The notes beneath the pieces were generated by a model. That model had not been told where the DNA came from. It searched no databases and saw nothing but the letters and a program-made list of their open reading frames with translations. A stretch of DNA of 64,000 nucleotides from positions 62,001-126,000 of IMG/VR virus record IMGVR_UViG_3300023174_000046, one strand, 5' to 3'. How positions within the stretch are numbered: the stretch's first letter is position 1; each line of letters opens with the position of its first letter. This document shows positions 1,483 to 60,428 of this stretch, piece by piece. The position numbers and the translations under genes were made by a program. This stretch comes from a virus.

Positions 1483-1516
1483 GCTCTTATTATAACTACA
1501 CTTTTATATGAATCAA
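1483..1516 (-). promoter_or_regulatory. Early-type promoter of queD
   Basis: On the minus strand TTGATT (1511-1516), 16 nt, TATAAT (1489-1494), then exactly 6 nt to the ATG at 1482. The predicted transcription start falls on or next to the start codon. Confidence 0.7.
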
Positions 1517-2900: not shown

Positions 2901-2908
2901 TATTTATT
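2901..2908 (-). promoter_or_regulatory. Late-type promoter box AATAAATA
   Basis: Minus-strand AATAAATA 9 nt before the ATG at 2891. It sits directly beside the -35 box (2910-2915) of the divergent folE promoter. Confidence 0.55.
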
Positions 2909-2909
2909 A

Positions 2910-2945
2910 TTGAAAATTTAAAACCTTAGGTTATATTATGTAAAT
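2910..2945 (+). promoter_or_regulatory. Early-type promoter of folE
   Basis: TTGAAA (2910-2915), 18 nt, TATTAT (2934-2939), then 6 nt to the ATG at 2946. No Shine-Dalgarno sequence is present. Confidence 0.55.
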
Positions 2946-3596
2946 ATGTCTAAGAAAGTATTAATTCCATACGCAAATCATAACCATCCTCGCTCTGAAC
3001 AAGAGAAGAATGAGATTATTGATCATGCCGCAAAAGCTTATGAAGCTTATCTTGATGCGCTTTGTATTGATTGGCGCAATGATCCAAATAGCTCCAACAC
3101 ACCTCACCGAGTTGCAAAGGCCTTTGTTGAAGATCTAGCTTCTGGTTGCTACAGCACACCACCCAAAGTAACTGCATTTGCTAATGTGGATCAATATGAT
3201 GGCATTGTGTGTCAAAATAATATTAAAGTAACTTCACTTTGTTCACATCATCATGCAGCGTTCACTGGTGTAGCACATGTAGCATACATACCTTCTCGTG
3301 ATGGTAAGGTCATTGGCTTGAGCAAGCTCAATCGCATTGTAGATTGGTTTTCACGCAGACCACAAGTGCAGGAGAATCTCACCATGCAAATTCACCAGCA
3401 TATTGATCAAGCTTGTGAATTAAACAATGGTGTGGCAGTTATGATTGAGGCAAAGCATACTTGTTGTTCCAATCGTGGCATCAAGCATGACTCTACTATG
3501 CGCACTGCGCGCATGTCTGGTGCGTTCTTGGATAACAATGACAACTCTCGTTCTGAGTTTTACAAGTTTATTGAATTTGCACAAAATAGGGATTAA
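2946..3596 (+). CDS. folE: GTP cyclohydrolase I
   Basis: 216 residues, normal for the family. FolE converts GTP to dihydroneopterin triphosphate, the first step to both folate and 7-deazaguanine (preQ0). Visible motifs: SLCSHHHAAF near residue 98 (zinc Cys and following His), IGLSKLNRIVDWFSRRPQVQ (the most conserved family block) and HTCCSNRGIKHDSTMRT near residue 171 (second zinc Cys and catalytic region). The N-terminal 70 residues form the usual helical part. In this phage it most likely feeds QueD and QueC rather than folate synthesis, because no other folate gene is seen. The assignment is secure. Confidence 0.96.
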   Translation: MSKKVLIPYANHNHPRSEQEKNEIIDHAAKAYEAYLDALCIDWRNDPNSSNTPHRVAKAFVEDLASGCYSTPPKVTAFANVDQYDGIVCQNNIKVTSLCSHHHAAFTGVAHVAYIPSRDGKVIGLSKLNRIVDWFSRRPQVQENLTMQIHQHIDQACELNNGVAVMIEAKHTCCSNRGIKHDSTMRTARMSGAFLDNNDNSRSEFYKFIEFAQNRD

Positions 3597-7855: not shown

Positions 7856-7863
7856 CATAAATA
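7856..7863 (+). promoter_or_regulatory. Late-type promoter box CATAAATA
   Basis: CATAAATA followed by a 5-nt spacer to the ATG at 7869. It supports that ATG over upstream alternatives. Confidence 0.55.
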
Positions 7864-11017: not shown

Positions 11018-11025
11018 TATTTAAC
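11018..11025 (-). promoter_or_regulatory. Late-type promoter box GTTAAATA
   Basis: Minus-strand GTTAAATA with a 5-nt spacer before the ATG at 11012. Confidence 0.5.
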
Positions 11026-11041: not shown

Positions 11042-11302
11042 TCACATGCCAATAAAAGGTCTGCGTATAACAACCATCTTTGATTTATTTTTGCCTTTAG
11101 TTTTTTTGGCGCCCAAAGCAACCGGTTTGCGAAAATCGCCTTCTGCATACTTATCTTTACCGGGTGTACCTGAGGGATTGTCCTTCCAGTCTGATGTCTG
11201 GAATGTGCCCAGCGAACCGCCAGAACCAGCTGTATTTGAGGCAGCAGGTGCACCGCCTATATCCTCCATAAGCTTGGCAAACAATACGTCAAACATTTTC
11301 AC
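11042..11302 (-). CDS. Small basic protein with capsid-targeting-like N-terminus
   Basis: 86 residues from a GTG start, beginning MKMFDVLFAKLMEDIGGAPA: an amphipathic opening ending in LME, then a Gly/Ser-rich linker and a strongly basic C-terminal tail (GAKKTKGKNKSKMVVIRR). A cleavable tag followed by a basic tail fits a DNA-associated internal head protein. A perfect TATAAATA lies 6 nt before the start codon. A longer overlapping frame at 11017-11253 is judged a shadow. Confidence 0.62.
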   Translation of the reverse strand: MKMFDVLFAKLMEDIGGAPAASNTAGSGGSLGTFQTSDWKDNPSGTPGKDKYAEGDFRKPVALGAKKTKGKNKSKMVVIRRPFIGM

Positions 11303-11336
11303 TTTAATTATTTATAACATATACTATAATAAAGAT
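11303..11336 (+). promoter_or_regulatory. Early-type promoter of uvsY
   Basis: A perfect TATAAT (11325-11330) stands exactly 6 nt before the ATG at 11337. The -35 position holds only a weak TTTAAT (11303-11308). Confidence 0.55.
11309..11316 (-). promoter_or_regulatory. Late-type promoter box TATAAATA
   Basis: Perfect T4 late consensus on the minus strand, 6 nt before the GTG at 11302. It lies inside the spacer of the divergent uvsY promoter. Confidence 0.7.
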
Positions 11337-11735
11337 ATGGAATTTAATATTCAGAAAATATTAATCGAAATTGAGAAAGACGTTGCTGTAGATGAATTAA
11401 ATCTACGGGAAGTGCAGTTCAAGCTACCTGCAATTAAGCATAAGTATGCTGGTCTTTTGATTAGATCGAAGATTGAGCTCAATAATAAGAAGAAGGAGCT
11501 TGATGAGCAGCGCAAGAGCGCTGTAGAGCAGATAAAAGAGAAAAGCCCTGTTAAATTAGCACCCAATACACTATTTGATACTGCAAATGAACTACCTAAT
11601 CTCAAAAAAATACGTAGCGAGATAGAAGAAATTGACTTGCTCATAACATTGTTAGAGAAAACTGAAAAGACCCTTTCTTCAATGACCTATGATATAAAGA
11701 ATATTATTGAAATACAAAAGCTTGAGACAACATGA
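11337..11735 (+). CDS. uvsY: UvsY-like recombination mediator
   Basis: 132 residues, close to the 137 of T4 UvsY, which loads UvsX recombinase on gp32-coated single strands. The N-terminal IEIEKDVAVDELNL and the following Lys-rich helix align by eye with the T4 protein, and the C-terminal IKNIIEIQKLE resembles its IKHIQDM end. The next gene is uvsW, the T4 neighbour, overlapping by 4 nt (ATGA). I start at 11337 because the promoter geometry fits and because the upstream extension of the frame is antisense to a real gene. Assignment rests on length, pattern and synteny. Confidence 0.7.
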   Translation: MEFNIQKILIEIEKDVAVDELNLREVQFKLPAIKHKYAGLLIRSKIELNNKKKELDEQRKSAVEQIKEKSPVKLAPNTLFDTANELPNLKKIRSEIEEIDLLITLLEKTEKTLSSMTYDIKNIIEIQKLETT

Positions 11736-13195
11736 TAAAAATTGATTTTGATGGTAAAAAGAATAAGGCTATTCTCTCTGGTGATCATTTTGATGAAATA
11801 AGAGAAAATTTTTCTGTAAAAAATAAAGCCGCAGTTTTTTTAAAAAGATATGCCCGTTACATTCCGTCACGCACCTACAGTATTACTCCCACAGGAAGAT
11901 TTGATCCCTGTCTAACCCCGGAATTACAAAAGTTTTTTCTTGAAAAGCAGTATTCATGTTCTGTTGAAATTTCAGAGGATATTAAAAATATCATAACACC
12001 CGCTCTTTTTACATGGAAAAAAAATGCAAACTTCTCTGATACACCCTATAAACTAAAGCTCGATTTGCGCGATTATCAAGAAGAAATAGTTAAACAATGT
12101 CTTTCTTCTGGCAGAGGAACAGTAGTCCTTGCAACTGCAGGTGGGAAGACACTTGTAATGGCTTCATTAATATCATCTGTCTACCGCTTTAATAATAGCA
12201 AATTTAAATGTTTACTCATAGTACCAGATCGAGGCCTTGTAGAGCAAACATATAATGATTTTGTTCAATACGGTGTACCGTTCTCATTTTCAAAATGGAC
12301 AGGCGATAATAAGCTTGACTTGACTTCTAATATTATAATTGCAAATCTCGGCATTCTACAGAGTAAGAATTCAAATCTATCTTGGTTAGAGAATATTGAT
12401 ATGGTAGTAGTCGATGAAGTGCATAAGATTCGAAAAGGGAATGAAGTTAATAAACTTTTAGCATTAGCCAAAACAGCACATAAATTTGGATTTACAGGGA
12501 CTTTACCTGAGGAGAAAGAGGATCAGTGGAACATTATTGGTAAGATTGGACCAATATTGTATGAAAAGAATAGTTATGAACTACGAACTGAGAATTATGT
12601 AAGCAACGCGAATATACAGATGCTAAATGTTTTCTATAAAACTGTACCTAAGCGTGAAAGCAGCAATTTTAATCCCACAGATTTTTACAAGAAAGAGCTC
12701 GACTTTATTATTGAAAATAAATTCCGAAACGTATTATTATCAAAAATTGTTAATAAAGTTGAAAAAAACGTACTCATTTTAATTGATTTTATAAAGCATG
12801 GTGAAATACTTGAATCGGTTCTCAAGTTAAACTGCAACAATAAGAGGGTATTTTTTATTCGTGGCGAAGTAGAAGTCGAAGAAAGAGAGAAGATTAAAAA
12901 TATTATTGAAACTGATGATAATGTTGTTGTTATAGCTATTTCAAAAATATTTTCTACAGGTATTAATGTTAAGAATTTACACTACATTGTTTTTGCAGGC
13001 GGTGGCAAGGCGAAGATCAAGACTGTACAATCCATTGGTAGAGGTTTACGCTTGCATATCAACAAGGATAAGCTTATAATATTCGACATATCAGATCAAC
13101 TCTATTATGGTATACAACATACCAATAAAAGAAAACAAATTTATGAAAAAGAAAAAATCCAATACTACACCACCGACCTCCACGAAAAAGCCTAA
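11732..13195 (+). CDS. uvsW: UvsW-like superfamily 2 helicase
   Basis: 487 residues. After an N-terminal domain, LRDYQEEIVKQCLSSGRGTV forms the Q-motif region, ATAGGKT near residue 134 is the Walker A, VVVDEVHK near 226 is motif II (DEVH), FGFTGTLPE is motif III, and ALQSIGRGLR-type motif VI appears as VQSIGRGLRLH. UvsW unwinds branched DNA, reverses forks and dissolves R-loops, switching T4 from origin to recombination replication. It follows uvsY and runs 53 nt into the gp55 gene. Confidence 0.88.
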   Translation: MIKIDFDGKKNKAILSGDHFDEIRENFSVKNKAAVFLKRYARYIPSRTYSITPTGRFDPCLTPELQKFFLEKQYSCSVEISEDIKNIITPALFTWKKNANFSDTPYKLKLDLRDYQEEIVKQCLSSGRGTVVLATAGGKTLVMASLISSVYRFNNSKFKCLLIVPDRGLVEQTYNDFVQYGVPFSFSKWTGDNKLDLTSNIIIANLGILQSKNSNLSWLENIDMVVVDEVHKIRKGNEVNKLLALAKTAHKFGFTGTLPEEKEDQWNIIGKIGPILYEKNSYELRTENYVSNANIQMLNVFYKTVPKRESSNFNPTDFYKKELDFIIENKFRNVLLSKIVNKVEKNVLILIDFIKHGEILESVLKLNCNNKRVFFIRGEVEVEEREKIKNIIETDDNVVVIAISKIFSTGINVKNLHYIVFAGGGKAKIKTVQSIGRGLRLHINKDKLIIFDISDQLYYGIQHTNKRKQIYEKEKIQYYTTDLHEKA

Positions 13196-13646
13196 AAAAG
13201 ATAAACCTTTTTATGTTAGCCCGAAGGAATTCGAAGCTGAGATTACTATCTATTACAATACCGGTAACATGTCAATTAATCTTGGTGAATCCATTACTAA
13301 GATTGCAAATGGATTGAGCTACGCACCTAATTTTATTAATTATACATACAAAGACGATATGGTTGGCGATGCAATTGTGAAGATGTTTTCTGCATTAAAG
13401 AATAAGAAATTTAAACTAAATAGCGGGTTTAGTCCTTTTTCATATTTTACTACTATTGCTTTTCATGCATTTATTAATAGAATTAAAAAAGAAAAGAAAC
13501 ACCACGCTGCAATTAATGATTACAGAGAAAAAGTTTATACAGATTTAATTCATTCATGCCCCGGTGGTGAGCAAATTTACGTAAAGCCTTCAGACAGTAA
13601 TAATGAAGATGGTGAAAATGATGTCTTTAGTAATTTGAATGGTTAA
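13143..13646 (+). CDS. gp55: Late-transcription sigma factor (T4 gp55-like)
   Basis: 167 residues from the ATG at 13143, within the 3' end of uvsW; an earlier in-frame start at 13107 is less likely. A basic N-terminus is followed by a sigma region 2-like block (DDMVGDAIVKMFSAL, FSYFTTIAFHAFINRIKKEKK) that matches the same block of T4 gp55. gp55 directs RNA polymerase to TATAAATA boxes, and many such boxes occur in this window. The acidic C-terminus ends ENDVFSNLNG, where T4 gp55 carries its sliding-clamp contact. The link between this protein and the late boxes is a strong inference. Confidence 0.82.
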   Translation: MKKKKSNTTPPTSTKKPKKDKPFYVSPKEFEAEITIYYNTGNMSINLGESITKIANGLSYAPNFINYTYKDDMVGDAIVKMFSALKNKKFKLNSGFSPFSYFTTIAFHAFINRIKKEKKHHAAINDYREKVYTDLIHSCPGGEQIYVKPSDSNNEDGENDVFSNLNG

Positions 13647-14688: not shown

Positions 14689-16490
14689 AAAAAATTATCT
14701 TTAACAAAATTTCAATAAAAAACTTTCTTTCTGTAGGAAGCGAGCCTGTCGTAATTGATTTTAAGACAGGGTTACATATTATTACAGGTCTTAATAAAGA
14801 TAAGGAAGACCGTCGTAATGGTGTTGGTAAATCTACTGTTGCTGATGCTATATACTTTGCTATTTTTGGTTCTACGTTGAGAGAGCTTAAGAAAGAGCAT
14901 ATTGTTAATAATACTAATAGAGAGAACTGTGAAGTTATCCTAGATTTTGATATTGAAGGATTTGATAGAAAAGATGAATATCAAATTATAAGAATGCTTG
15001 AACCGTCACGTTGCTATGTGTACAAGAACGGTGAAGACAAGACACGAGACAGCATTATTAATACTACTGAATATATTTTTGAAAAGATTAATTGTTCACC
15101 TGATATTTTTCAGAATTGTGTTATTATGACTGTTAATAATACTATACCTTTCATGGCAAAGAAGAAGATTGAAAAGCGAAAATTTATTGAAGGGATTTTT
15201 AATTTAGAAGTTTTTAGTACTATGTTGCAACGTCTTCGTGATGAATACAATGAATCAAAGAGAAACTTTGATATTGAATCAACAAAATGTACAGAGATTG
15301 AAAATAGCTTATCTCTACAGGTTACAGCAAAAGAAGTTTACAATAAAGAGCGTGACGCCAAAAGAGAGAAATATACCGGTCGTAAAGAAAGCAACATAAA
15401 GGAACTACAGCTACTTGACAAAAAAATAAATGAATTTACTGCTTTAGATATTAAGAAGATTGAGAAAGACATTAGCACACTTACAACAAAAGCTGAAAAA
15501 ATTGATCAAGAAATTAAAGTGTTGCGTGACAAGACTTCCTCATATCGCACACAGATTGAATTAAAAGAAAAAGACTACAAGCGAATTGGAACAGATAAAG
15601 ATGCTTGCCCTACATGTTTACGTGCACTAGAAGATAAAGATAAAAATCATATTAAAGAGGAGAAACAAAAAATTAAAAAAGAGATTAGTGATTTTGAAAA
15701 TAAGATCAACACTAATGTTGCAAAAGAAGAAGAGTCTTCTGCACTAGAGCTTAAGCTGTATGGAGCAGTAGAGAGCTTGAAGGGCAAGATTAATGCTTTT
15801 AATCTAGAGCAAAAAGAATTAGAGAGTATTAAAACTCGAATAAATCAATTAAATGTATGGCAAAAAGAGCTAGATATTGATCTCGCAGAACTTAGCAAGA
15901 CAAACAATCAACACGATACAAATATTGAAGATATTACAAAGCGACTTGAGGAAATAAAGAGTGTGCTTGAAAAGACAAAGATACATTTCAATATGCTTGA
16001 TGCTGTAAAATTTGTGTTATCTGAAGAAGGCGTAAAATCATATATTGTAAAAAAGATTCTTCAGCTCTTTAATAGCAAACTTGCTTATTATCTAAAGAAA
16101 ATGGATTCGAATTGCATTTGTATTTTTAATGAATATTTTGAAGAAGAGATTATTGATGAAAAGGGCAAACCATGTTCTTATTTTAATTTTAGTGGTGCAG
16201 AACGGAAGAATATAGATCTAGCATGTTTGTTTGCTTTTATGGATATAAGACGTTTACAAGGTAATGTCGCATTTAATTTTAGTGTGTATGATGAGCTGTT
16301 TGATTCATCTCTCGATGAAAAGGGTGTAGAGCTTGTACTGGGTATTTTACGAGAAAGAATTGAAAAATATAATGAATGTATTATGGTGATTAGTCACCGC
16401 AAAGAGAGTGTAAAATTTGCTTCAGGTGATATTATTTTTCTAGAAAAGAAAAACGGTATTACTAAACGTATTGAATACAGCGATTATTAG
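14685..16490 (+). CDS. gp46: Recombination endonuclease subunit gp46 (SbcC/Rad50-like)
   Basis: 601 residues. Walker A GVGKST near residue 45, long coiled coils around a CPTC zinc hook near residue 307, the ABC signature NFSGAERKNIDLA near 505 and Walker B VYDELFDSS near 533, followed by VISHRKE. The ATPase works with gp47 at DNA ends. Start ATG is preceded by AAAGGTGCG, one of the few Shine-Dalgarno-like sequences here. Its TAG stop shares a TTAG with the convergent gene. Confidence 0.94.
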   Translation: MKKIIFNKISIKNFLSVGSEPVVIDFKTGLHIITGLNKDKEDRRNGVGKSTVADAIYFAIFGSTLRELKKEHIVNNTNRENCEVILDFDIEGFDRKDEYQIIRMLEPSRCYVYKNGEDKTRDSIINTTEYIFEKINCSPDIFQNCVIMTVNNTIPFMAKKKIEKRKFIEGIFNLEVFSTMLQRLRDEYNESKRNFDIESTKCTEIENSLSLQVTAKEVYNKERDAKREKYTGRKESNIKELQLLDKKINEFTALDIKKIEKDISTLTTKAEKIDQEIKVLRDKTSSYRTQIELKEKDYKRIGTDKDACPTCLRALEDKDKNHIKEEKQKIKKEISDFENKINTNVAKEEESSALELKLYGAVESLKGKINAFNLEQKELESIKTRINQLNVWQKELDIDLAELSKTNNQHDTNIEDITKRLEEIKSVLEKTKIHFNMLDAVKFVLSEEGVKSYIVKKILQLFNSKLAYYLKKMDSNCICIFNEYFEEEIIDEKGKPCSYFNFSGAERKNIDLACLFAFMDIRRLQGNVAFNFSVYDELFDSSLDEKGVELVLGILRERIEKYNECIMVISHRKESVKFASGDIIFLEKKNGITKRIEYSDY

Positions 16491-17374
16491 TCTGAAGAAG
16501 TATAATTTCTATCGCCAACTGCTTGCGGTATAACTCTTCTACCAAATTCTCTTCGCGCAATATCCTCAATATCTGGCTCAAGTCCTGTTTCGAGAGCCTC
16601 TGGCTCTTTTGTTATGTCTTCAGGGTTAGCTAGCTTATAATAATCAACAGCTAGATCTACAAAGTTTTGAAAATAATCAAAATTATCTTTTGGATCAACC
16701 TTAAAAAACTCTTCTTTTTCTTTCTTATCCAACATATCTTCTGCTGTACTACGTGCTGCAGCTTCAATTTGTTTTCTTAGTTCTTCCGGATTGCTTGTTT
16801 CAAATGTATCAGACAATTCATCGTATACTCTTGGACTTATTTTATCATATTTGCCAAAATTTGGTGTTCCTGTTCTTGTAAAAATCTTTTCTGCTTCAAT
16901 GGTTGCAGGCACATCACTCTTTGATATTTCTTTATTTTTTGCTCCTGCTTCTACAGCCTTTTTAACTGCAGCTGGTGATGTGGCATTACCGCCTTCACCA
17001 TCTGTTCGTATAACATTAAGCAAGTTATCTGCAATACGAGCTGTATAACCAGCCTGAGTTTTGCCAAGCTTAAGCTCATTCTTAACAAGATCTATCAATT
17101 CAGCGCGAAACTTATCTTTGCTCCCCGGGTAATAAAGCTGATATTCAACACCATCAACTGTATGTGATGCAGGCTTAAAAAGTTTTGTTTTAATTGTATC
17201 AATTAGTCCCTTGACTTGATCATCAGATAAACCCTTAAAACCATAACCGCCACCTGCGCTTGCCCGTGGATCAGACGAGAAACCTAGATCACCTGGCCCA
17301 AAAACAGGTATTTCACTAATTAATTGTGTTTTTGCGTAAGCTTCAAAAATTAGCTTAGAGTCTTTATTATTCAT
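16487..17374 (-). CDS. Hypothetical late protein with cleavable-type N-terminus
   Basis: 295 residues, acidic and hydrophilic. The start MNNKDSKLIFEAYAKTQLIS contains two candidate prohead-protease sites (IFE-Ala and ISE-Ile). A central block (KDKFRAELIDLVKNELKLG) and a C-terminal acidic helical part follow; no enzymatic motif is evident. It is a single-gene minus-strand unit between replication genes, driven by a late box 8 nt upstream. A head or core component is the most likely role, by inference only. Confidence 0.6.
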   Translation of the reverse strand: MNNKDSKLIFEAYAKTQLISEIPVFGPGDLGFSSDPRASAGGGYGFKGLSDDQVKGLIDTIKTKLFKPASHTVDGVEYQLYYPGSKDKFRAELIDLVKNELKLGKTQAGYTARIADNLLNVIRTDGEGGNATSPAAVKKAVEAGAKNKEISKSDVPATIEAEKIFTRTGTPNFGKYDKISPRVYDELSDTFETSNPEELRKQIEAAARSTAEDMLDKKEKEEFFKVDPKDNFDYFQNFVDLAVDYYKLANPEDITKEPEALETGLEPDIEDIARREFGRRVIPQAVGDRNYTSSD

Positions 17375-17376
17375 GC

Positions 17377-17410
17377 TTGAATTATTTATTGTTTGTATTA
17401 ATATATTTTC
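17377..17410 (+). promoter_or_regulatory. Early-type promoter of the glycosyltransferase gene
   Basis: TTGAAT (17377-17382), 16 nt, TAATAT (17399-17404), 6 nt, ATG at 17411. Confidence 0.6.
17383..17390 (-). promoter_or_regulatory. Late-type promoter box AATAAATA
   Basis: Minus-strand AATAAATA 8 nt before the ATG at 17374. It lies within the 16-nt spacer of the divergent early promoter. Confidence 0.55.
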
Positions 17411-21650: not shown

Positions 21651-22801
21651 TGTCTCTCAATAAAGATATCCGGAGCGTACTTGATACTATTGATAGTATC
21701 AATCCACATGCAACCTACCTTTCGGAAGGCACTCTTTCAAAGGTAGACGGTTGGATTAGTACAGGTTCATATGTATTAAACGCTATTATTTCAGGTAGCA
21801 TCAATAAAGGTGTGCCTAGAAATAGAGTAACTTTGTTTGCAGGAGAGAGCATGACTGGTAAAACCTATGTTATTACTAAAATCCTCGCTAATGCTCAAAA
21901 GGAAGGGTTAGTTCCGGTTATTTTTGATACCGAAGGCGCCATTGATTCTGAATCAGCAGCTAAGCTCGGCCTTGACACAACAAAAGTAAAATATGTTCCC
22001 TGTTTTTCAATTGAAGAGACAAGAAACACAATTTATAATTTCCTTACAAAAGTTAAGGAAAATGGTCAAGAGGGAAAGTTTATTATTGCTATTGATTCTC
22101 TTGGTAATCTTGAGAATCAGCTCTCTTTAGATAGAATGACTAAAGAGAGCAGCTCAACTGATATGGGTACAAGAGCAAGAGCAATTAAGAGCTTGCTCAA
22201 GACGTGCACAAATATGTCACGCTTAACTAAGACAACATTCTTAATTACCAACCATACGTATGATGACCCAAGTGCAATGTATGAAAGTATGATCAAGCAG
22301 CAACCAGGCGGTAAAAGTGTTTGGTATTTGTCAGATGTAACAGTACAATTAGCACGTAAGCCTGAAAAAGATGACGGCGGTAAAGCAGTAGATAGCAAAT
22401 TAGCTGTTGGTCAACGCAATTACCCAGGTGTCATTCTCCGTGCACTTACTGTTAAGAATAGATTTGTCCGCCAATACCTACAAGGTGAAATGTATTTGAG
22501 TTTTGAGTCTGGTCTTAACAAATACTATGGTCTACTGGACCTTGCAGTTGGTTTCGGTATTGTTGTACAGAATGGTGCAACATATGCTCTTGCTGATGGC
22601 ACTAAGTTGGGATATTATAAGACATGGAGAACAGATGAAGAGCTTTGGAATACGAAATTGTTACCTGCTATTGAAGCTAAGATTAATATCGAGTGGCAGT
22701 ACGGTAATTCAGATGAAGTACCGGACGAACTACCTTCTGAAGAAGCACCAGTTGCAAAGAAAACAAAAGGTGCTAAACTGGCTGAAGATGTCGACGAATA
22801 A
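21650..22801 (+). CDS. uvsX: UvsX RecA-like recombinase
   Basis: 383 residues, the size of T4 UvsX (391). Walker A GESMTGKT near residue 64, FIIAIDSLGNL (Walker B) near 147, a tolerant loop around KQQPGGKSVWYLSDV (loop L2 region) and an acidic C-terminus (EDVDE). UvsX carries out strand exchange for recombination-dependent replication, helped by UvsY. The 3' end overlaps queC by 14 nt. Confidence 0.95.
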   Translation: MSLNKDIRSVLDTIDSINPHATYLSEGTLSKVDGWISTGSYVLNAIISGSINKGVPRNRVTLFAGESMTGKTYVITKILANAQKEGLVPVIFDTEGAIDSESAAKLGLDTTKVKYVPCFSIEETRNTIYNFLTKVKENGQEGKFIIAIDSLGNLENQLSLDRMTKESSSTDMGTRARAIKSLLKTCTNMSRLTKTTFLITNHTYDDPSAMYESMIKQQPGGKSVWYLSDVTVQLARKPEKDDGGKAVDSKLAVGQRNYPGVILRALTVKNRFVRQYLQGEMYLSFESGLNKYYGLLDLAVGFGIVVQNGATYALADGTKLGYYKTWRTDEELWNTKLLPAIEAKINIEWQYGNSDEVPDELPSEEAPVAKKTKGAKLAEDVDE

Positions 22802-23525
22802 GAAACCTGCTATAGTAGTTCCTGTTAGTGGTGGTATGGATAGTACCGTGCTGCTATATAAAGCTGCAGGTGAGTTTGAAAAACTACACTGCATAAGCTT
22901 TGACTACAATCAAAAGCATAGAAAAGAATTAAATTATGCAACACTGCAAGTAGGCTTAATAAGAGATAAAATTGGTAAAGAAAATATTACTCACGATATA
23001 ATTGATCTATCTTTTTTTAAAGATATTGCTTCGACATCTGCTCTCACAAATACTAATATTGCTGTTGCAAAAGCTCGTAATGTAATGGGCGATCCACAAA
23101 CAGTAAATTATGTACCGTTTAGAAATTTAATGCTACTTAGCATATGTCTTGCACATGCTGAAAGTCATAACACTACAACAGTATGGCATGGGGCTGCGCA
23201 AGCTGATAGTATTGCTGGTTATTGGGATGGCAGTACTGAGTTTATTACCGAGCTCAATAAAGTGGCTAGTTTGAATCGTAGATTACGAATTAATGTGGAG
23301 GCGCCTTTATTAACAAAGTCAAAGTTAGATATTGTTACATTGGGTGTACACTTGAACGTACCCTTTAAAGATACATGGACATGCTATGAGGGTGAACAAG
23401 AAGCATGCGGTGAATGTACTGCATGCAGTCTTCGCTTACAAGGTTTTATTAAAGCAGGCTTTATTGATCCTATCCCTTATAAGAAAGAAATAGACTGGAA
23501 TTCTTTCAACTGTATTCCATTATAA
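22788..23525 (+). CDS. queC: 7-cyano-7-deazaguanine (preQ0) synthase
   Basis: 245 residues starting at the ATG inside the end of uvsX; longer upstream frames are shadows of uvsX. PP-loop SGGMDST (residues 13-19), FDYNQKHRKEL, NYVPFRNLMLL and a four-Cys zinc site WTCYEGEQEACGECTACSLR near 197-213 are all diagnostic. QueC turns 7-carboxy-7-deazaguanine into preQ0 with ATP and ammonia. The next gene, 4 nt away, is a class II glutamine amidotransferase domain; in Gat-QueC proteins these two domains are fused and make the amidino form. QueE is not in the window. Confidence 0.95.
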   Translation: MSTNKKPAIVVPVSGGMDSTVLLYKAAGEFEKLHCISFDYNQKHRKELNYATLQVGLIRDKIGKENITHDIIDLSFFKDIASTSALTNTNIAVAKARNVMGDPQTVNYVPFRNLMLLSICLAHAESHNTTTVWHGAAQADSIAGYWDGSTEFITELNKVASLNRRLRINVEAPLLTKSKLDIVTLGVHLNVPFKDTWTCYEGEQEACGECTACSLRLQGFIKAGFIDPIPYKKEIDWNSFNCIPL

Positions 23526-23529
23526 TAAA

Positions 23530-24180
23530 ATGTGTGGTATATTTGGAGCTACAGATAAAGAAAGATTTAAATCTCTTTATAATTTAAATAAGCAGAGAGG
23601 TAATTTTTCTTTTGGTTGCTGCTTCTTAACACAAGATAGACGGTCTCAGTATTGTGAATCTGCACCTGGTGAAGTTAATCTTGATGATTTAATGAGCGAT
23701 AATTACTACTATCTTCTAGGTCATACACAGGCCCCTACTTCATCAGCTCGTGGGTATGATAGAGCCACTTCACATCCTTTTGTGGATGGTGATTGGGTTG
23801 TTGCACATAACGGTGTATTATCTAATTTTGAAATCTTAAAGCAAAAATATGTACCAGAGCACGCAAACCCTGTCGATAGTAGCATCATACCAGTGCTCTT
23901 AAGCTATATGCAGGAAGATGATGAGGTACAGACAATTAAAAATGTATTAGAAGCTATTGAGGGAACTTATAGTTTGTGGCTCTTCAATCATGTTAGTAAA
24001 AATATCTATGTTGTACGGTGCGGTAGTACACTCTATGGTGATATTATTAAATGTGAGTTCTCATCATACCCAGATATTGGCTTGAGTGAACTTGATGATA
24101 ATGCTCTTTATTTGGTTACACAAGAGGGGTTAACAAAGGTCTCAGGATTTGATGGCAACAGCCCGTTTTTTATTATATGA
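23530..24180 (+). CDS. Class II glutamine amidotransferase (stand-alone)
   Basis: 216 residues. The Ntn-hydrolase start MCGIFGA has Cys2 as catalytic nucleophile after Met removal. LLGHTQAPTS corresponds to the GHTRWAT box, with Gln in place of Arg, and VDGDWVVAHNGVLSNF is the conserved HNG block. It lacks the sugar isomerase or asparagine synthase domain that would define GlmS or AsnB. Stand-alone position directly after queC suggests that it supplies ammonia to a deazaguanine intermediate, as in Gat-QueC enzymes. That role is inferred from context. Confidence 0.83.
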   Translation: MCGIFGATDKERFKSLYNLNKQRGNFSFGCCFLTQDRRSQYCESAPGEVNLDDLMSDNYYYLLGHTQAPTSSARGYDRATSHPFVDGDWVVAHNGVLSNFEILKQKYVPEHANPVDSSIIPVLLSYMQEDDEVQTIKNVLEAIEGTYSLWLFNHVSKNIYVVRCGSTLYGDIIKCEFSSYPDIGLSELDDNALYLVTQEGLTKVSGFDGNSPFFII

Positions 24181-24851
24181 ATATTTGTATTTTTAGCTGT
24201 ACTACTAAGAGCGATGAGACACAGACAGATCTATATAAGAGTTGTTTAGAATTTGAGCATCTAGATGTGTATTTTAAGAAGGAAAACGCAGATGGGTTAT
24301 CTAAATCGTATAATAATTTTTTATATAGTAAGGAGGCTAGCGAATATGATATTGTTGTTTTTTGCCATGATGATGTTTTTATCGATGATCTTAAGCTAAA
24401 AAACAAATTACAAGCTGCAACTGACCTTGGTTACGATATTATAGGTCTTGCTGGCTGTGTTAATCCGAAAATTATAAGACCTGCACTATGGCATCTTATG
24501 GCAGGCGGATTTAATAGCAATAATTTAAGAGGAATTGTAAATCACTATCAGGATGAAACACGCGCGCATCATTTTGCAACAAATTTTGGACCTACACCTT
24601 CGCGGGTTGCATTATTAGATGGTCTTTTTCTTGCTGTTAACGTTGGAAAGGCAAAAGAGGTTGGATGGGGCTTTAATGAAAACTACAATTTTCATCACTA
24701 TGATATTGCCTCTTGTCTAGACGCAAATAATAAAAAATTAAAATTAGGCGTTTACCCTATAAATGTTATTCACTGCTCGCACGGGCTCCGATCTTTTGAT
24801 GACAACTTTAAGAATAGTGAAGATGCCTTTATGCGAGAATATTCTCGTTGA
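24177..24851 (+). CDS. Glycosyltransferase, GT-A type (StrF/family 2-like)
   Basis: 224 residues. YDIVVFCHDDVFIDD near residue 58 is the acidic metal/nucleotide site typical of StrF-like family 2 enzymes (HDDV). It is followed by IIGLAGCVNP and LLDGLFLAVNVGKAKEVGW, where the acceptor-side Asp lies, and a His-rich YNFHHYDIASCL. It overlaps the amidotransferase by 4 nt and so belongs to the queC operon. A role in DNA base or virion glycosylation is possible; nothing in the sequence decides it. Confidence 0.68.
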   Translation: MNICIFSCTTKSDETQTDLYKSCLEFEHLDVYFKKENADGLSKSYNNFLYSKEASEYDIVVFCHDDVFIDDLKLKNKLQAATDLGYDIIGLAGCVNPKIIRPALWHLMAGGFNSNNLRGIVNHYQDETRAHHFATNFGPTPSRVALLDGLFLAVNVGKAKEVGWGFNENYNFHHYDIASCLDANNKKLKLGVYPINVIHCSHGLRSFDDNFKNSEDAFMREYSR

Positions 24852-24881
24852 TTAATTTATACTTTCTTTTATTATTAAATT
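24848..24881 (+). promoter_or_regulatory. Early-type promoter of gp41
   Basis: TTGATT (24848-24853), 16 nt, TATTAT (24870-24875), 6 nt, ATG at 24882. This is the clearest example of the early consensus. Confidence 0.68.
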
Positions 24882-26216
24882 ATGCAAGACCGTGCTTTAG
24901 ATTTGGATTTCTTTGAGCATGTTGTTTTATATAAATCGCTTACTGACGAAAAATTTTTAGGCTCGATTGTAGATATTGTTAAGCCAGCTTTCTTTAAAGA
25001 CAAGAATATTAAGAGTATTTTTAGTATTATTAAAGAATTTTATATTAAAAATACCACAGTACCTACCTTAACTGAAATTAAGGCTTACTTGAGCACTGAT
25101 AAGCTTAAAGAAAGCTTCAAAGAATCAATTTCGAAATTTAAAGATATTGACAAAAACTTTAATGAAGAAGAACTTTACCGCAATACAGAAAGATTTTTAA
25201 GAGAAAAAGCTGTTTATACAACAATGCTTGAAGTTGCAGATAAATGCTCAAAAGGTGAGATCAATACTGCAGAAATTTTGGAAAAGTTTGATAGTTCTTG
25301 CAGTATTAATCTGTCAGTAGATCTTGGTATAGAGATACTTTCAAACTCACAGCTCATTGTTGATGATTTAAATAAAGTTGAAAGCTTTATTTCTACTGGG
25401 TACCCTTGGATTGATCAACGTATAGGTGGAGGCTTGCAAGAAAACGGCAGGTCTTTGTATGTTTTTGCAGGTGAAACAAATATTGGCAAGTCAATTTTTC
25501 TCGCTAACGTCGCTACTAATATTGCAAAACAAAATAAAACGGTTTTATTGATTTCACTAGAAATGCCTGAATTGATATATGCAAAACGACTTTCGTCTAA
25601 TATTACAAAAATTCCAATCTTTAGATTAAAGGGTGAACAGGATCAGCTCAAGATTGGCTTGGATGAATTTAATAGAAAAAACCCTAATGCCCGGATTTAT
25701 GTAAAAGAGTTTCCACCATCGACTATTTCACCCTTACAACTAAATGCATTTATTAAGAAGTTTATTGCAAAAGGAATAAAAGTAGATGCAATTGTATTAG
25801 ATTATCTCAATCTCATACACTCTCCTACAGGGACCAATTCATATGAAAGGGTAAAATATGTTACTGAAAAGATTCGAGCTTTGTCTTATATTTTTAATTG
25901 TCCTATTATTTCAGCAACACAATTAAATCGCTCTGGTTATAGTGAATCAGACCCATCTATAGCCACAATTAGTGAAAGCATTGGTTTAGCTGCGACTGCA
26001 GATGTTGTCATGAGTATTTTTCAGACAGATGAAGAAAGAGAGCTGGGAGTTATTCACTTAGGTATGATGAAAAATCGCTTTGGACCAAATTTTGGAAACG
26101 TTTTATTGAGAATAGATTACCCCACATTAACAATTTCACAAGATGATACTATAAATGATACTGACGAAAGCAATTCGTTGACGTCAACCCTCAAAGTATT
26201 AGCAGATAACAATTGA
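24882..26216 (+). CDS. gp41: Replicative DNA helicase (DnaB-type, T4 gp41-like)
   Basis: 444 residues. The N-terminal helical domain is followed by a RecA-fold ATPase: GETNIGKS near residue 197 (Walker A), LLISLEMPE (motif 1a), VDAIVLDYLNLI near 300 (Walker B) and PIISATQLNRSG (motif 3), the DnaB_C signature. It unwinds the fork 5' to 3' and pairs with primase gp61. Length is close to T4 gp41 (475). The helicase loader gp59 is not clearly recognised nearby. Confidence 0.94.
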   Translation: MQDRALDLDFFEHVVLYKSLTDEKFLGSIVDIVKPAFFKDKNIKSIFSIIKEFYIKNTTVPTLTEIKAYLSTDKLKESFKESISKFKDIDKNFNEEELYRNTERFLREKAVYTTMLEVADKCSKGEINTAEILEKFDSSCSINLSVDLGIEILSNSQLIVDDLNKVESFISTGYPWIDQRIGGGLQENGRSLYVFAGETNIGKSIFLANVATNIAKQNKTVLLISLEMPELIYAKRLSSNITKIPIFRLKGEQDQLKIGLDEFNRKNPNARIYVKEFPPSTISPLQLNAFIKKFIAKGIKVDAIVLDYLNLIHSPTGTNSYERVKYVTEKIRALSYIFNCPIISATQLNRSGYSESDPSIATISESIGLAATADVVMSIFQTDEERELGVIHLGMMKNRFGPNFGNVLLRIDYPTLTISQDDTINDTDESNSLTSTLKVLADNN

Positions 26217-27132: not shown

Positions 27133-27409
27133 AGAACTCAATCCTTCCTTTAAAATGGTTGAGTCAGAAACAATGCATAACTTCCTATCTTTTTGCACCT
27201 TTATATACCTTATCAATGGAAAAAAGCTTAATCTTGCTAATATTTTTCTATTATGCCTAAAAAACGAAAACATCAAAAAGCTCTATAAAAGAATTTTAGA
27301 AGTGGATAATGATTTTTATGCATTTAAAATGTTCTTTGAATTTGATCCAACCCTGTACAAGAGTAAATATATAATGAAATTTTTAAGTAAGGATAAATGT
27401 GAGAAATAA
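27122..27409 (+). CDS. Hypothetical protein
   Basis: 95 residues, helical, Lys/Phe-rich. It overlaps the preceding gene by 11 nt and the bS21-like gene by 11 nt. The segment YAFKMFFEFDPTLYKSKYIM near residue 66 looks by eye like part of T4 gp59 (AFKEIFEYNP then SSYIFKLL), the loader of helicase gp41. The match is short and could be chance, although the position between gp41 and gp32 would fit a replication accessory protein. Confidence 0.5.
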   Translation: MNIKELNPSFKMVESETMHNFLSFCTFIYLINGKKLNLANIFLLCLKNENIKKLYKRILEVDNDFYAFKMFFEFDPTLYKSKYIMKFLSKDKCEK

Positions 27410-27602
27410 TGCTGAAGTAAAACTAGAGCTGAAGAAATCTTCTAATAAAGAATATTTTGACAAAAAGCTAAATGCATTTTCAAAATTAGTCAAGAGAAGC
27501 GGCATACTCGAAGACTTGAAGTGGAAGAAGTGCGCCTACAAACCATCAATGCTTAAGAAATTAAAGAAAAAGAATGCACACTTGAAGTGGAAGTTCTATT
27601 GA
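27399..27602 (+). CDS. rpsU: Ribosomal protein bS21-like
   Basis: 67 residues from a GTG start preceded by AAGGATAA. The pattern is that of bS21: YFDKKLNAFSKLVKRSGIL matches the FDxALRRFKRxxxKxGxL helix, KWKKCAYKPSMLKKLKKKNA matches RRREFYEKPTxxRKRKxxxA, and the basic tail ends in KFY. bS21 sits at the mRNA exit near the anti-Shine-Dalgarno helix; phage versions are known in marine phages and large phages and may redirect ribosomes to phage mRNAs. The gene lies among replication genes and overlaps both neighbours. Confidence 0.75.
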   Translation: MRNNAEVKLELKKSSNKEYFDKKLNAFSKLVKRSGILEDLKWKKCAYKPSMLKKLKKKNAHLKWKFY

Positions 27603-29115: not shown

Positions 29116-29548
29116 AACACAACAAGAAGAATATCAAGAGAAAGTAGATTTGCTTAAGTTTTTTGGAGCTGTAAAAGGCTCTTTAAACGAAATCAATACT
29201 AAAGTTATTGATGGCAGTAATCTGCGACCTGCAAATTTTGATATTCAAAAACTTGCTTTAGAACACGACAAAGCAACAGGTGCACCTGTCGCGGCAGGTG
29301 CTAACCAGCAGATATCACATCAACAACTGCCTAATGCTGATTTTGTTCCTCTACAATACCCTGTATTAACGACTGATCAATCCCACCAACAAGAAGACCC
29401 AAATCAACTGGCACTACCTTTTGATAAAAAGTATGACCTAAATGATATTTTTTCAAAAATAGACGATGTTTATAGAAAAATAATAACTCTTGAAAATGAA
29501 GTATATAAATTAAGAGAGTTAGTTGAAAATAAAAAAAAAGAACTATAA
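29108..29548 (+). CDS. Hypothetical protein with clamp-binding-like motif
   Basis: 146 residues overlapping gp32 by 8 nt. The N-terminal third is helical, the middle is Gln/Pro-rich, and the C-terminal 40 residues form a likely coiled coil (FSKIDDVYRKIITLENEVYK). At residues 100-105 it carries QLALPF, very like the QLSLPL-type beta-clamp-binding hexapeptide of bacteria. The sliding clamp gene follows 9 nt later. A clamp-associated accessory factor is a possible role. Confidence 0.55.
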   Translation: MNKTQQEEYQEKVDLLKFFGAVKGSLNEINTKVIDGSNLRPANFDIQKLALEHDKATGAPVAAGANQQISHQQLPNADFVPLQYPVLTTDQSHQQEDPNQLALPFDKKYDLNDIFSKIDDVYRKIITLENEVYKLRELVENKKKEL

Positions 29549-29557
29549 TATACCAAG
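29523..29557 (+). promoter_or_regulatory. Early-type promoter of gp45
   Basis: TTGAAA (29523-29528), 17 nt, TAATAT (29546-29551), 6 nt, ATG at 29558. Confidence 0.5.
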
Positions 29558-30298
29558 ATGGTTCTCAAGATTCATAACCTAAAAAACTTTAATAACGGGT
29601 TTTTAAACAACATATCTAAATTAACAGATAGTTGTATTTTAAGATTCGAAAAAAATGACGCATCATGTATTGCAAGCAATAACGACAACACTGTCGTCTA
29701 TTATAGTTCTACTAATCAAGATGATTCGTTTATAAGTGACAATCTTATCACACTCAATATACCTGATGTAAAGAAGCTAATAAAAATATTTTCTTGTATT
29801 GAAGAAAACAGCATTCAACTTAATATTGAAAATAATAATATATCTTTTGCAAACAACTATTTCAAATTTAAATACCACCTTTTAGAGGATGGTATTGTTG
29901 TTGTACCGAAGATAAACATCTCGAAGATATTTGCTTTGCAATTTAATACCATATTTAAAATTAGAAAGAATGAATTGCAGAATATTCTCAAAGCTAGCAC
30001 TATTGCATTAGATGTTACTAAGCTTTATCTTTACAGTGATGATAATGGCATATTCTGTGATTTTACTGATAATAATAGACATAATGTTGATAGTATTGCG
30101 CTAAAGATTACAGATGCGTTTGAAGGTGATAAAATTAAGCAACCTGTACCAATTAATTTTGAAATCGTGAGGTTGATATCTTCTTCAAAATCTAACGAAC
30201 TAAACATAAGATACAATAATAGTCTCGGTGTATTTCTTTTTGATCTTGAAGAATCTGGATACACCTGTAAGTATATTGTATCAGCACTTGTAAATTAA
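29558..30298 (+). CDS. gp45: Sliding clamp (T4 gp45-like)
   Basis: 246 residues, against 228 in T4. The all-beta/alpha pattern of two clamp domains is visible: an N-terminal LKNFNNGFLNNIS helix, IPDVKKLIKIFSCI in the middle as the equivalent of the gp45 LNGFLGIL segment, and FKIRKNELQNILKASTIALD at the start of the second domain (T4 IKAEDLQQLLRVSRGLQID). It encircles DNA for gp43 and, in T4, activates late transcription with gp55 and gp33. Its overall divergence is high but size, order and neighbours agree. Confidence 0.8.
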   Translation: MVLKIHNLKNFNNGFLNNISKLTDSCILRFEKNDASCIASNNDNTVVYYSSTNQDDSFISDNLITLNIPDVKKLIKIFSCIEENSIQLNIENNNISFANNYFKFKYHLLEDGIVVVPKINISKIFALQFNTIFKIRKNELQNILKASTIALDVTKLYLYSDDNGIFCDFTDNNRHNVDSIALKITDAFEGDKIKQPVPINFEIVRLISSSKSNELNIRYNNSLGVFLFDLEESGYTCKYIVSALVN

Positions 30299-33867: not shown

Positions 33868-34235
33868 TGATCTCGTTCAAAAAAATGTGTGAAGATGCAC
33901 AAATGTATTCTGCTGATAGGTACGTTGCAGGTATAGCCTCCAGGGATCTCAAGTCAAATCCTGTTAGTTTAGCGGATCTATATGGTAGACAAGAGCAATA
34001 CCCCAACAAGCAGAATGTTGCGCGTGTTACCCCTTCTGAATTAACAAACATCATAGATCAACTCGGTCAATTGTATTTGGTATGCGAGAACTTGTTTGCA
34101 AAATATAATCTTGCGTTGAACAACCCAACAATAAAGAATAAAGCGCTTTTAAAATTAGCTTTGCTTATTGTTCGGAAGATGTATGATGCGACTAAAAAAT
34201 TAGCATTTATAACAAGAAAAGTAGTTGATAGTTAA
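33867..34235 (+). CDS. Hypothetical protein
   Basis: 122 residues beginning MISFKKMCEDAQMYSADRYV; helical, with a C-terminal KALLKLALLIVRKMYDATKK that is amphipathic rather than transmembrane. Behind a late box at the tight spacing, hence probably a virion or assembly protein. No family recognised. Confidence 0.5.
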   Translation: MISFKKMCEDAQMYSADRYVAGIASRDLKSNPVSLADLYGRQEQYPNKQNVARVTPSELTNIIDQLGQLYLVCENLFAKYNLALNNPTIKNKALLKLALLIVRKMYDATKKLAFITRKVVDS

Positions 34236-34258
34236 GACATTTCCGTTATAATAAGTTT
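34225..34258 (+). promoter_or_regulatory. Early-type promoter
   Basis: TTGATA (34225-34230), 16 nt, TATAAT (34247-34252), 6 nt, GTG start at 34259. The -35 box overlaps the end of the previous gene. Confidence 0.62.
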
Positions 34259-36411: not shown

Positions 36412-36419
36412 TATTTAAT
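36412..36419 (-). promoter_or_regulatory. Late-type promoter box ATTAAATA
   Basis: Minus-strand ATTAAATA, 5 nt before the ATG at 36406. Confidence 0.5.
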
Positions 36420-37410: not shown

Positions 37411-37417
37411 ATAAGTA
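37410..37417 (+). promoter_or_regulatory. Late-type box TATAAGTA of gp17
   Basis: TATAAGTA, 8 nt before the ATG at 37426. It overlaps the opposing box by two bases. Confidence 0.4.
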
Positions 37418-37423
37418 TTTATG
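37416..37423 (-). promoter_or_regulatory. Late-type promoter box CATAAATA
   Basis: Minus-strand CATAAATA, 5 nt before the ATG at 37410. Confidence 0.5.
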
Positions 37424-39754: not shown

Positions 39755-39762
39755 TATAAATA
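39755..39762 (+). promoter_or_regulatory. Late promoter box TATAAATA of gp18
   Basis: Perfect late consensus, 8 nt before the ATG at 39771. No Shine-Dalgarno sequence lies in between. Confidence 0.75.
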
Positions 39763-42082: not shown

Positions 42083-42090
42083 AATAAATA
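42083..42090 (+). promoter_or_regulatory. Late-type promoter box AATAAATA of gp19
   Basis: AATAAATA, 5 nt before the ATG at 42096. Confidence 0.58.
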
Positions 42091-42656: not shown

Positions 42657-42664
42657 ATTAAATA
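42657..42664 (+). promoter_or_regulatory. Late-type promoter box ATTAAATA
   Basis: ATTAAATA, 6 nt before the GTG start at 42671. Confidence 0.52.
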
Positions 42665-44486: not shown

Positions 44487-44494
44487 TTTAAATA
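44487..44494 (+). promoter_or_regulatory. Late-type promoter box TTTAAATA
   Basis: TTTAAATA, 6 nt before the ATG at 44501. Confidence 0.5.
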
Positions 44495-47194: not shown

Positions 47195-47202
47195 ATTAAA
47201 TA
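47195..47202 (+). promoter_or_regulatory. Late-type promoter box ATTAAATA
   Basis: ATTAAATA, 5 nt before the ATG at 47208. Confidence 0.55.
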
Positions 47203-52537: not shown

Positions 52538-52570
52538 TTGATTTCTAGAATTCTATATTATTATTAATAT
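52538..52570 (+). promoter_or_regulatory. Early-type promoter of dut
   Basis: TTGATT (52538-52543), 15 nt, TATTAT (52559-52564), 6 nt, ATG at 52571. Confidence 0.58.
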
Positions 52571-54530: not shown

Positions 54531-54538
54531 TATTTATA
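54531..54538 (-). promoter_or_regulatory. Late promoter box TATAAATA
   Basis: Perfect consensus on the minus strand, 6 nt before the ATG at 54524. Confidence 0.68.
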
Positions 54539-54571: not shown

Positions 54572-54579
54572 ACTAAATA
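54572..54579 (+). promoter_or_regulatory. Late-type promoter box ACTAAATA of gp25
   Basis: ACTAAATA, 7 nt before the ATG at 54587. Confidence 0.45.
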
Positions 54580-59900: not shown

Positions 59901-60425
59901 CTTAAGCGTGTTCTTGACCTTGCAAGTATTAAGCGAAACAAATTATTCGGTAATAAAAATCAAAATAATTACAGCTTTTCGAGCAATTTGCTTGAAACTA
60001 ATCTTGGCAATATCATAAATCTCGAAACTGACACTTTTTCAGCTACAGAAATACTTGTTGCGAAAGAAAAGTTTTCCAGTACTTACAAACCTGTAAACAC
60101 AACAATTATTAATGAGTATTCAGCAACTGATATAATTCCTTTTTCAGAATTTTCCTATGATTGGGGTTGGGGATTGGTAGCACCACAAACACTTTCAGGC
60201 TTGAATATTGGTGGTTATTATGACTTTTATCGTCTTAATATTACAGATCAACAGATTTATGATAATATAATTGATTTTAATAACCAAAATTCAAATATTA
60301 CACCCAATCTCAGCACATACAATGATTTTTACGGTGAAAATGGAATTGTAGATCAAAATATTACATACGCCTTTGTTAACGGCTTGAGATTAATCTCCAG
60401 TGCAATGAACGTATATTACAATTAA
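56919..60425 (+). CDS. Very large baseplate/fibre protein with PKD and beta-propeller-like repeats (gp7 position)
   Basis: 1168 residues. Near residues 69-110 there is a PKD-type Ig domain (IRWDFGDGTYQISPTGVHAY then KYPGLYKVKLYL). Residues about 530-830 hold NHL/SMP-30-like repeats (GSASPSSIALDNNNNAFVTL; SSVDVDKNGEVYVVYTH; IVIDRNNNIWMAT; DITVDGNQNCWVSH), suggesting a beta-propeller. The C-terminus is helical and conserved-looking. In T4 gene 7 follows gene 6 and encodes a 1032-residue wedge protein; the position agrees, while the PKD and propeller domains look like added host-binding or structural modules. Confidence 0.65.
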   Translation: MALINTNELYIKVFDHTGAPILSTYALPQTPLTFVPDYSIVQLLSSVSFVSSLTSYTNTFYIPDTNDYSNIKIRWDFGDGTYQISPTGVHAYKYPGLYKVKLYLINENGESFKNNFVANVNIYNFLKDEWNFSPYKDFIVDIPAGRLSDKITINRQNSWQTYNVLSGTGYTFNLYSSGSGTYYYDVKNYYMDKWAHLKKFFKFIEKQTINDVLQDVIVDKVKTSNTEIYAKKVSDNIVICNKDDSGAFFVGTTGSADFYYTDDSNKNNTSTNDPIFIFANLDTSKFYDSLGFADQVYDKLTPLELSYLNTIPAVLPIIKTRYNPAATFTITSNGLDGEGDTTINSFALNKTSFANTKIPFVLKLKDQDNYTTKSYPYLSSTDSMPLTSYFFKINLLDENNTIVPSVSFFKTDFEKDIFQSGGFYRGYFVCDREVQNAKLSASVYIDDIPNFEQDTAFVFYSQPYTHYIPRIFSNILYNSIPGQQFATTTTTYDFLDTIDNRSIFTITQIPSSNNSDNDYCFWAADSDSDRLLKMSYTGDILATINLSAATLSDGTVADLRNIYGSASPSSIALDNNNNAFVTLFDSGSVIRINNITNLIDRIGIPPVSAITTNTFLTSSDYIANQGWVGEFTLLPSSVDVDKNGEVYVVYTHPQFTALTRFDNNLNYKKRISGFFGLNNYAQKIVIDRNNNIWMATTRKDTSSTGSANLSGKNDFIWILKDTAATPLGIPALTTFAGFKQISDITVDGNQNCWVSHDISTVTKLEYNPITQESTRYDFNMGEVYGNATDYLQSIEGISCNSLNEIVIVNNFDLKIYFLDASSTTQPVLSSLKQIQLQSAPNNFMEYPISAYYDSKYQAGGDFLGYNWINKYYYFSSNTKILTGTSSTFNIYPASGYNLMFKENENFDGEQMYRNMALMETLQDKNVFFDDFLGKIVGNQQSNANSALLKKIYEKIANFSDNIANVDTCNVDSLISKCNMFDVTYENYNYPYPASLKRVLDLASIKRNKLFGNKNQNNYSFSSNLLETNLGNIINLETDTFSATEILVAKEKFSSTYKPVNTTIINEYSATDIIPFSEFSYDWGWGLVAPQTLSGLNIGGYYDFYRLNITDQQIYDNIIDFNNQNSNITPNLSTYNDFYGENGIVDQNITYAFVNGLRLISSAMNVYYN

Positions 60426-60428
60426 ATA
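60421..60428 (+). promoter_or_regulatory. Late-type promoter box ATTAAATA
   Basis: ATTAAATA, 9 nt before the ATG at 60438; it overlaps the stop codon of the previous gene. Confidence 0.45.

Follow-up and report, generated by a model that had tools for sequence, protein, structure and literature searches.

How is a gene translated when its promoter runs almost into its start codon? This question is raised by the gene for a DnaB-like replicative helicase of the T4 gp41 type (24882..26216, plus strand; PHROG 19, E=2e-73) in the genome of an uncultivated T4-like myovirus. A −35 element, TTGATT (24848..24853, plus strand), is read in the sequence in front of this gene, and after 16 nt it is followed by a −10 element, TATTAT (24870..24875, plus strand), which ends 6 nt before the ATG at 24882, exactly as a preliminary description of this DNA had it. 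A sigma70-type −10 element with a 6-nt spacer places the predicted +1 on the first base of the start codon, and the helicase mRNA is thus predicted to be leaderless. Is this arrangement peculiar to the helicase gene, or is it the rule in this genome and in its relatives? Is the motif a promoter at all, and is the start codon behind it the real one?

The stretch of DNA analyzed here, which we call the window, is 64,000 nt long and corresponds to bases 62001-126000 of a 217,413-base IMG/VR record. PHROG matches in the window include T4-type replication proteins (DNA polymerase, UvsX, the gp41-like helicase, ssDNA-binding protein and primase) and T4-type virion proteins (terminase, tail sheath and baseplate proteins), so that the polymerase, helicase, ssDNA-binding protein, UvsX, terminase and tail sheath by which we judged membership of the T4-like phages were all found. 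The DNA polymerase shares about 31% identity with the enzymes of cyanophages and Pelagibacter phages, the terminase is 38-39% identical to those of Sinorhizobium and Rhizobium phages, and by sequence the window phage is a deep branch among T4-like phages. The named phages that come closest by DNA polymerase, helicase, terminase, sheath and NrdA indicate differing host groups, and scans of genome contigs for a host using helicase and bS21 alignments confirmed none. Related helicases, with identities of 47-99%, occur at 71 IMG/VR loci; the relatives used below were chosen by helicase similarity, and several of them are fragments. The genome also carries 16 tRNA genes, all of them outside the window (stretches L004, L009 and L010).

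Across the genome, 245 genes were called by our own codon-usage method, which is blind to ribosome-binding sites, and 244 of them have 60 bases upstream; the start sites are those of this caller, and the N-termini of orthologues usually agree with them. One hundred dinucleotide shuffles and 769 internal in-frame ATGs served as controls. The counts given below hinge on the gene caller and on the motif definitions chosen, which the shuffles and internal-ATG controls share.

Sigma70-type promoters were scored as TTGA plus a −10 element with at most one mismatch that ends 4-9 nt upstream of the start codon. Such pairs precede 20 of the 244 genes (mean 0.55 and maximum 3 in the shuffles) and none of the 769 internal ATGs. 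The spacer between the −10 element and the start codon peaks at 6 nt, in 12 of 31 cases here and 20 of 29 in the relative G006. TTGA itself peaks 29-31 nt upstream of start codons (7, 14 and 8 genes at the three positions; shuffles mean 0.86, maximum 6), which matches an intact −35/−10 pair. The preliminary description had proposed just such a distance check for its leaderless reading, and the −10-to-start distribution is indeed much tighter than in the shuffles, in support of that reading. It had also listed thirteen genes with this pattern. The general pattern stands far above chance, but several of the thirteen sites are weak, and the count of ten with exactly 6 nt falls to seven when the best-scoring promoter is taken (1482, 2946, 11337, 24882, 32410, 34259 and 52571). 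By the same measure the spacer is 7 nt at 10559 and 8 nt at 29558, and the −10 element is ambiguous at 17411, 18657, 21264 and 28267, which have overlapping TATTAT/TATAAT runs. A TTGA box is missing at 11337, 18657 and 32410, and the start at 11337 is uncertain because it is an internal start of the ORF 11046-11735.

Clear examples other than the helicase promoter come from the promoter scoring. TTGATT-16-TATAAT (1489..1516, minus strand) ends 6 nt before the ATG at 1482 of a QueD-like gene, and the promoters of its orthologues lie 4 nt (G006) and 7 nt (the relative G013) from the start. TTGAAA-18-TATTAT (2910..2939, plus strand) ends 6 nt before the ATG at 2946 of a GTP cyclohydrolase gene, with the same spacer in the G006 orthologue; TTGATA-16-TATAAT (34225..34252, plus strand) ends 6 nt before the GTG at 34259; and TTGATT-15-TATTAT (52538..52564, plus strand) ends 6 nt before the ATG at 52571 of a dUTPase gene, the orthologue of which has a 9-nt spacer in G013. 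The promoter of a gp45-like clamp gene, TTGAAA-15-TATAAT (29523..29549, plus strand), ends 8 nt before the ATG at 29558, and in G006 the spacer is 6 nt. As for the helicase promoter, its TTGAT box recurs in relatives whose helicases are 88-94% identical. A perfect TATAAT or TATTAT lies 3-11 nt before the helicase start in 30 of 42 non-redundant relatives and only farther out in none, and a Shine-Dalgarno (SD) sequence precedes this start in 1 of the 42.

Two of these genes belong to a set for 7-deazaguanine synthesis, which in the window comprises FolE (2946-3596), QueD (841-1482, minus strand) and QueC (22788-23525), with QueE and QueF families and DUF366 elsewhere in the genome (stretches L003-L006). 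The set suggests a modified guanine in the phage DNA. QueC is adjoined by a glutamine-amidotransferase-like protein (23530-24180; weak PHROG matches), which may belong to that modification pathway.

Sigma70-type elements are not the only promoters in this position. The preliminary description confined the layout to early-type promoters, and thereby missed a second and larger class: a T4-type late core lies in the same place in 19 genes of the window and 58 of the genome. These 58 of 244 genes (mean 2.8 and maximum 8 in the shuffles) have a TAAATA that stops 4-9 nt short of the start codon; the same is seen at 2 of 769 internal in-frame ATGs. The TAAATA spacer is 5 nt in 30 genes, 6 nt in 14 and 7-9 nt in 13, and beyond 12 nt the core occurs about 0.3 times per position. 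The longer form ATAAATA is found at spacers of 5-6 nt in 30 genes, in agreement with TATAAATA-type promoters. T4 late promoters span positions −13 to −6 (PMC1524935), and for this reason a spacer of 5 nt makes the A of ATG the +1 base. With a spacer of 5 nt for the late and of 6 nt for the sigma70-type promoter, both promoter systems converge on the start codon. Bacterial transcription initiation is expected to favor a pyrimidine at −1 and a purine at +1. At the late sites with a 5-nt spacer, a pyrimidine occupies −1 in 82 of 98 cases in four genomes (23/30, 39/47, 9/9 and 11/12), which fits a transcription start at the start codon.

Late sites occur on both strands of the window. On the plus strand, TAAATA lies 5 nt before the ATGs at 7869 (7858..7863), 42096 (42085..42090) and 47208 (47197..47202), and 6 nt before the GTG at 42671 (42659..42664) and the ATG at 44501 (44489..44494). 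The core is 7 nt before the ATG at 54587 (54574..54579; 5 nt in G013) and 9 nt before the ATG at 60438 (60423..60428; 8 nt in G013), and, within TATAAATA, 8 nt before the ATG at 39771 of the tail sheath gene, gp18 (39757..39762), the orthologues of which have late spacers of 6 nt in G006 and 8 nt in G013. This sheath protein (39771-42080, 769 aa) resembles known sheaths in its C-terminal 40% or so only, and its long N-terminal part is unmatched. On the minus strand, the spacer is 5 nt at the ATGs at 11012 (11018..11023; 6 nt in G013), 36406 (36412..36417; 5 nt in G013) and 37410 (37416..37421; 5 nt in G013), 6 nt at 54524 (54531..54536; 5 nt in G013), 8 nt at 17374 (17383..17388; 9 nt in G006) and 9 nt at 2891 (2901..2906; 6 nt in G006 and 5 nt in G013). 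The protein encoded at 16487-17374 gave no match when searched against phages.

The factors that would read such promoters are encoded in the window. A gp55-like late sigma factor (13107..13646, plus strand) matches T4 gp55 in phmmer at E=3.3e-9, and gp55 homologues are also present in the relatives G001, G006, G013 and G016. A gp45-like sliding clamp (29558..30298, plus strand) was recognized by iterative profile search, in which T4 gp45 appeared at E=1.5e-6 before its inclusion. In T4, gp45 is a cofactor of late transcription. An archaeal-type leaderless promoter was considered as well and rejected, since the elements are a bacterial −35/−10 pair and a gp55-type box.

SD-like motifs, scored 3-12 nt before the start, precede 10% of genes here (5% in the control window) and 5-9% in five uncultivated relatives (control 6-10%), compared with 67% in T4, 57% in the Pelagibacter phage Mosig, 52% in phiM12, 51% in C48C1 and 29% in P-SSM2. 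SD use in the clade is near background. None of the thirteen sites of the preliminary description has an SD, as it had noted, and its remark that some operon-internal genes have one holds for 14685, 39119 and 50477, which are among the SD users. A slight excess of five-base SD words in the genome (5% against about 0%) implies that a few genes do use SD. In this genome 21 genes have SD-like motifs and 72 fall outside every defined class; the leaderless strategy is therefore not universal. A further 70 genes overlap the same-strand upstream gene or sit within 10 nt of it, and these may be translated by coupling. The leaderless class itself comprises 78 genes, 69 of which start with ATG and 9 with GTG.

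Could mere crowding have produced this geometry? The genome is dense and AT-rich, and its compaction alone might have pushed promoters against start codons while leaving the mode of translation unchanged. T4, however, has a similar GC content and shows no spacer peak, and because it behaves differently in this way, with its abundant SDs, compaction fails to explain the SD loss. Moreover, the geometry is kept in long intergenic regions: among genes that have 60 nt or more of free upstream sequence, late cores lie at 4-9 nt in 16 genes versus 15-50 nt in 3, and sigma70 pairs at 4-9 nt in 11 genes versus 15-29 nt in none. The geometry is thus independent of a lack of space, and we consider compaction alone extremely unlikely.

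Another reading takes the AT-rich motif for a translational element, that is, an unstructured A/U-rich leader bound by bS1 on an mRNA that starts farther upstream. It draws on the position of 23 of the 58 late sites, where the distance to the preceding gene, on whichever strand, is 0-25 nt; some such genes may in addition be transcribed from promoters farther upstream, which would make the element an A/U-rich leader. Such an element would hardly take the form of two distinct kinds of promoter, each at a fixed spacing and one of them with TTGA at the right distance, and the motifs keep this position even in front of genes with 60 nt or more of unoccupied upstream sequence. The genome also encodes the gp55 and gp45 homologues, and a leader of this kind, even if transcribed, would be without SD. 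Finally, promoter class is conserved between orthologues. Comparison with the close relative G001 gave 23 late-late, 13 sigma70-sigma70 and no mixed pairs; the corresponding numbers were 16, 9 and 2 for G013 and 9, 8 and 3 for G006. Geometry and class persist even in orthologue pairs that share no more than about 30% identity. We regard a purely translational role of the motif as highly improbable. The most distant relatives, G015 and G016 (47-48% helicase identity; stretches L131-L142), are SD-poor with weaker and broader spacer peaks, and their late-core spacers are spread over 5-9 nt; by sequence they may represent an intermediate state.

It might also be that the promoters drive leadered mRNAs and that the real start codons lie downstream, so that the predicted N-termini extend too far. 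The starts were, after all, called with no information on ribosome binding, and those at 11337 and 18657 are uncertain. Against this, orthologues at 30-65% identity mostly align from residues 1-6 of the called starts, and the N-terminus of the helicase is conserved from residue 6 on in 11 aligned sequences. The median distance to the next in-frame start is 27 codons, and an SD precedes that start in only 1 of 61 leaderless-class genes, and internal ATGs lack the motifs. On the evidence of orthologue N-termini and of the scarcity of SDs before the next start, we rejected downstream starts, which we hold to be the least probable of the alternatives.

Leaderless transcription thus remains the preferred reading. 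It rests on a late promoter that gives the same predicted +1 as the sigma70-type promoter by a different spacing (5 versus 6 nt), on the conservation of class and spacing in orthologues, on the pyrimidine at −1 and on the near-background SD frequency. In this T4-like clade, most separately promoted genes, early/middle as well as late, very likely yield leaderless or nearly leaderless mRNAs, and such messages are probably the templates for many phage proteins.

An outline of the proposed process is as follows. Sigma70-type promoters (TTGA, 15-19 nt, TATAAT, 6 nt, ATG/GTG) would be read by host RNA polymerase and serve replication and nucleotide genes, and late promoters ((T/A)ATAAATA, 5 nt, ATG) would be read by RNA polymerase with the phage gp55-like sigma and gp45-like clamp, the timing classes being those suggested by promoter type. 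The actual 5′ ends are predicted from the sequence to fall on the start codon or within about 4 nt upstream of it, and start selection by RNA polymerase or the gp55 holoenzyme could deviate by a few nucleotides. Initiation at the 5′-terminal AUG or GUG would then be SD-independent, most likely by 70S ribosomes, in a host presumed to tolerate leaderless mRNAs. A 5′-terminal start codon is recognized directly, mostly by 70S ribosomes, according to a review (PMC9031893); the 70S route is inferred here. Translation of leaderless mRNAs reportedly escapes kasugamycin (PMC5230787). Operon-internal genes would probably be translated by coupling via stop/start overlap, and a few from a true SD. A bolder version, in which the clade has abandoned SD for separately promoted genes and also alters host ribosomes or initiation factors so that leaderless messages win, seems to us rather doubtful.

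A ribosomal cofactor was nevertheless an obvious thought, as the window encodes a bS21-like protein (27399..27602, plus strand; PF01165, 23 bits, below the curated cut-off) that had been suggested to affect such translation. This link did not hold: bS21 is not detectable in the leaderless-type G006 and G013, and is present in Mosig, which uses SD. With bS21 also undetected in G005, G008 and G009 (several of the five relatives being fragments), its role as a cofactor was rejected. The gene lies inside the replication cluster of closer relatives (stretches L012-L022 and L075) and was not found at the replication-cluster position of more distant ones.

Known cases of leaderless phage messages are lambda cI and phiYS40; here the layout appears to extend over the whole genome in a T4-like clade that is found in many metagenomes. 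Two unrelated promoter types meet at the start codon, and SD use drops close to background. If borne out, the layout would mean that the T4 late system is able to drive leaderless genes, and it would offer a natural setting for studies of 70S initiation; phage gene finders that rely on SD may then misplace starts in such genomes. The layout yields predictions of transcription starts at base resolution, which can be checked in metatranscriptomes without culturing.

How does this system compare with known ones? In published work, bacterial leaderless (TA-led) genes are marked by TANNNT some 10-12 bp ahead of the start codon; those of Actinobacteria and Deinococcus-Thermus likewise have no SD and carry a −10-like signal at a distance of about 12 bp (PMC3160421). 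In the present genome the spacer peak of 6 nt puts the first T of the −10 element at −12, in a number of genes beyond any shuffle, and SD is missing both at the thirteen sites first described and, to near background, in the clade. Unlike TA-led genes, those described here belong to a phage genome, have a full TTGA −35 element and include a second class with a non-sigma70 late promoter. The middle and late transcripts of Thermus phage phiYS40 are mostly leaderless, and its infection is reported to raise IF2 and lower IF3 (PMC3594737); leaderless genes abound in the phylum of its host, Deinococcus-Thermus (PMC3160421). Both are large phages with leaderless mRNAs, predicted from sequence in our case, but the phage studied here is T4-like, has a gp55-type late promoter and includes replication genes in the layout. 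Lambda cI is named as the classic leaderless phage mRNA in PMC3160421 and PMC9031893. It is a single transcript, in contrast to a genome-wide layout. Late transcripts of phiKZ reportedly begin at the start codon. A search of the open-access literature turned up no T4-like phage described as leaderless, which is not proof of absence. Bacteroidetes phages that encode bS21 are large and aquatic, and their predicted hosts are largely without SD (PMC9723584); the present phage is likewise large and aquatic with a bS21-like gene, but its promoters are sigma70-like (TTGA/TATAAT) and the presence of bS21 does not follow the geometry. With T4 itself it shares the gp55-type late sigma, the gp45 clamp, the TATAAATA late promoter and the T4-type replication, terminase and sheath genes. 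The mRNA layout of T4, leadered and with SD, is not found here: T4 keeps leaders and SDs, with SD-like motifs in 67% of its genes as against 10%, and has no spacer peak, whereas in the present phage the late promoter abuts the start codon.
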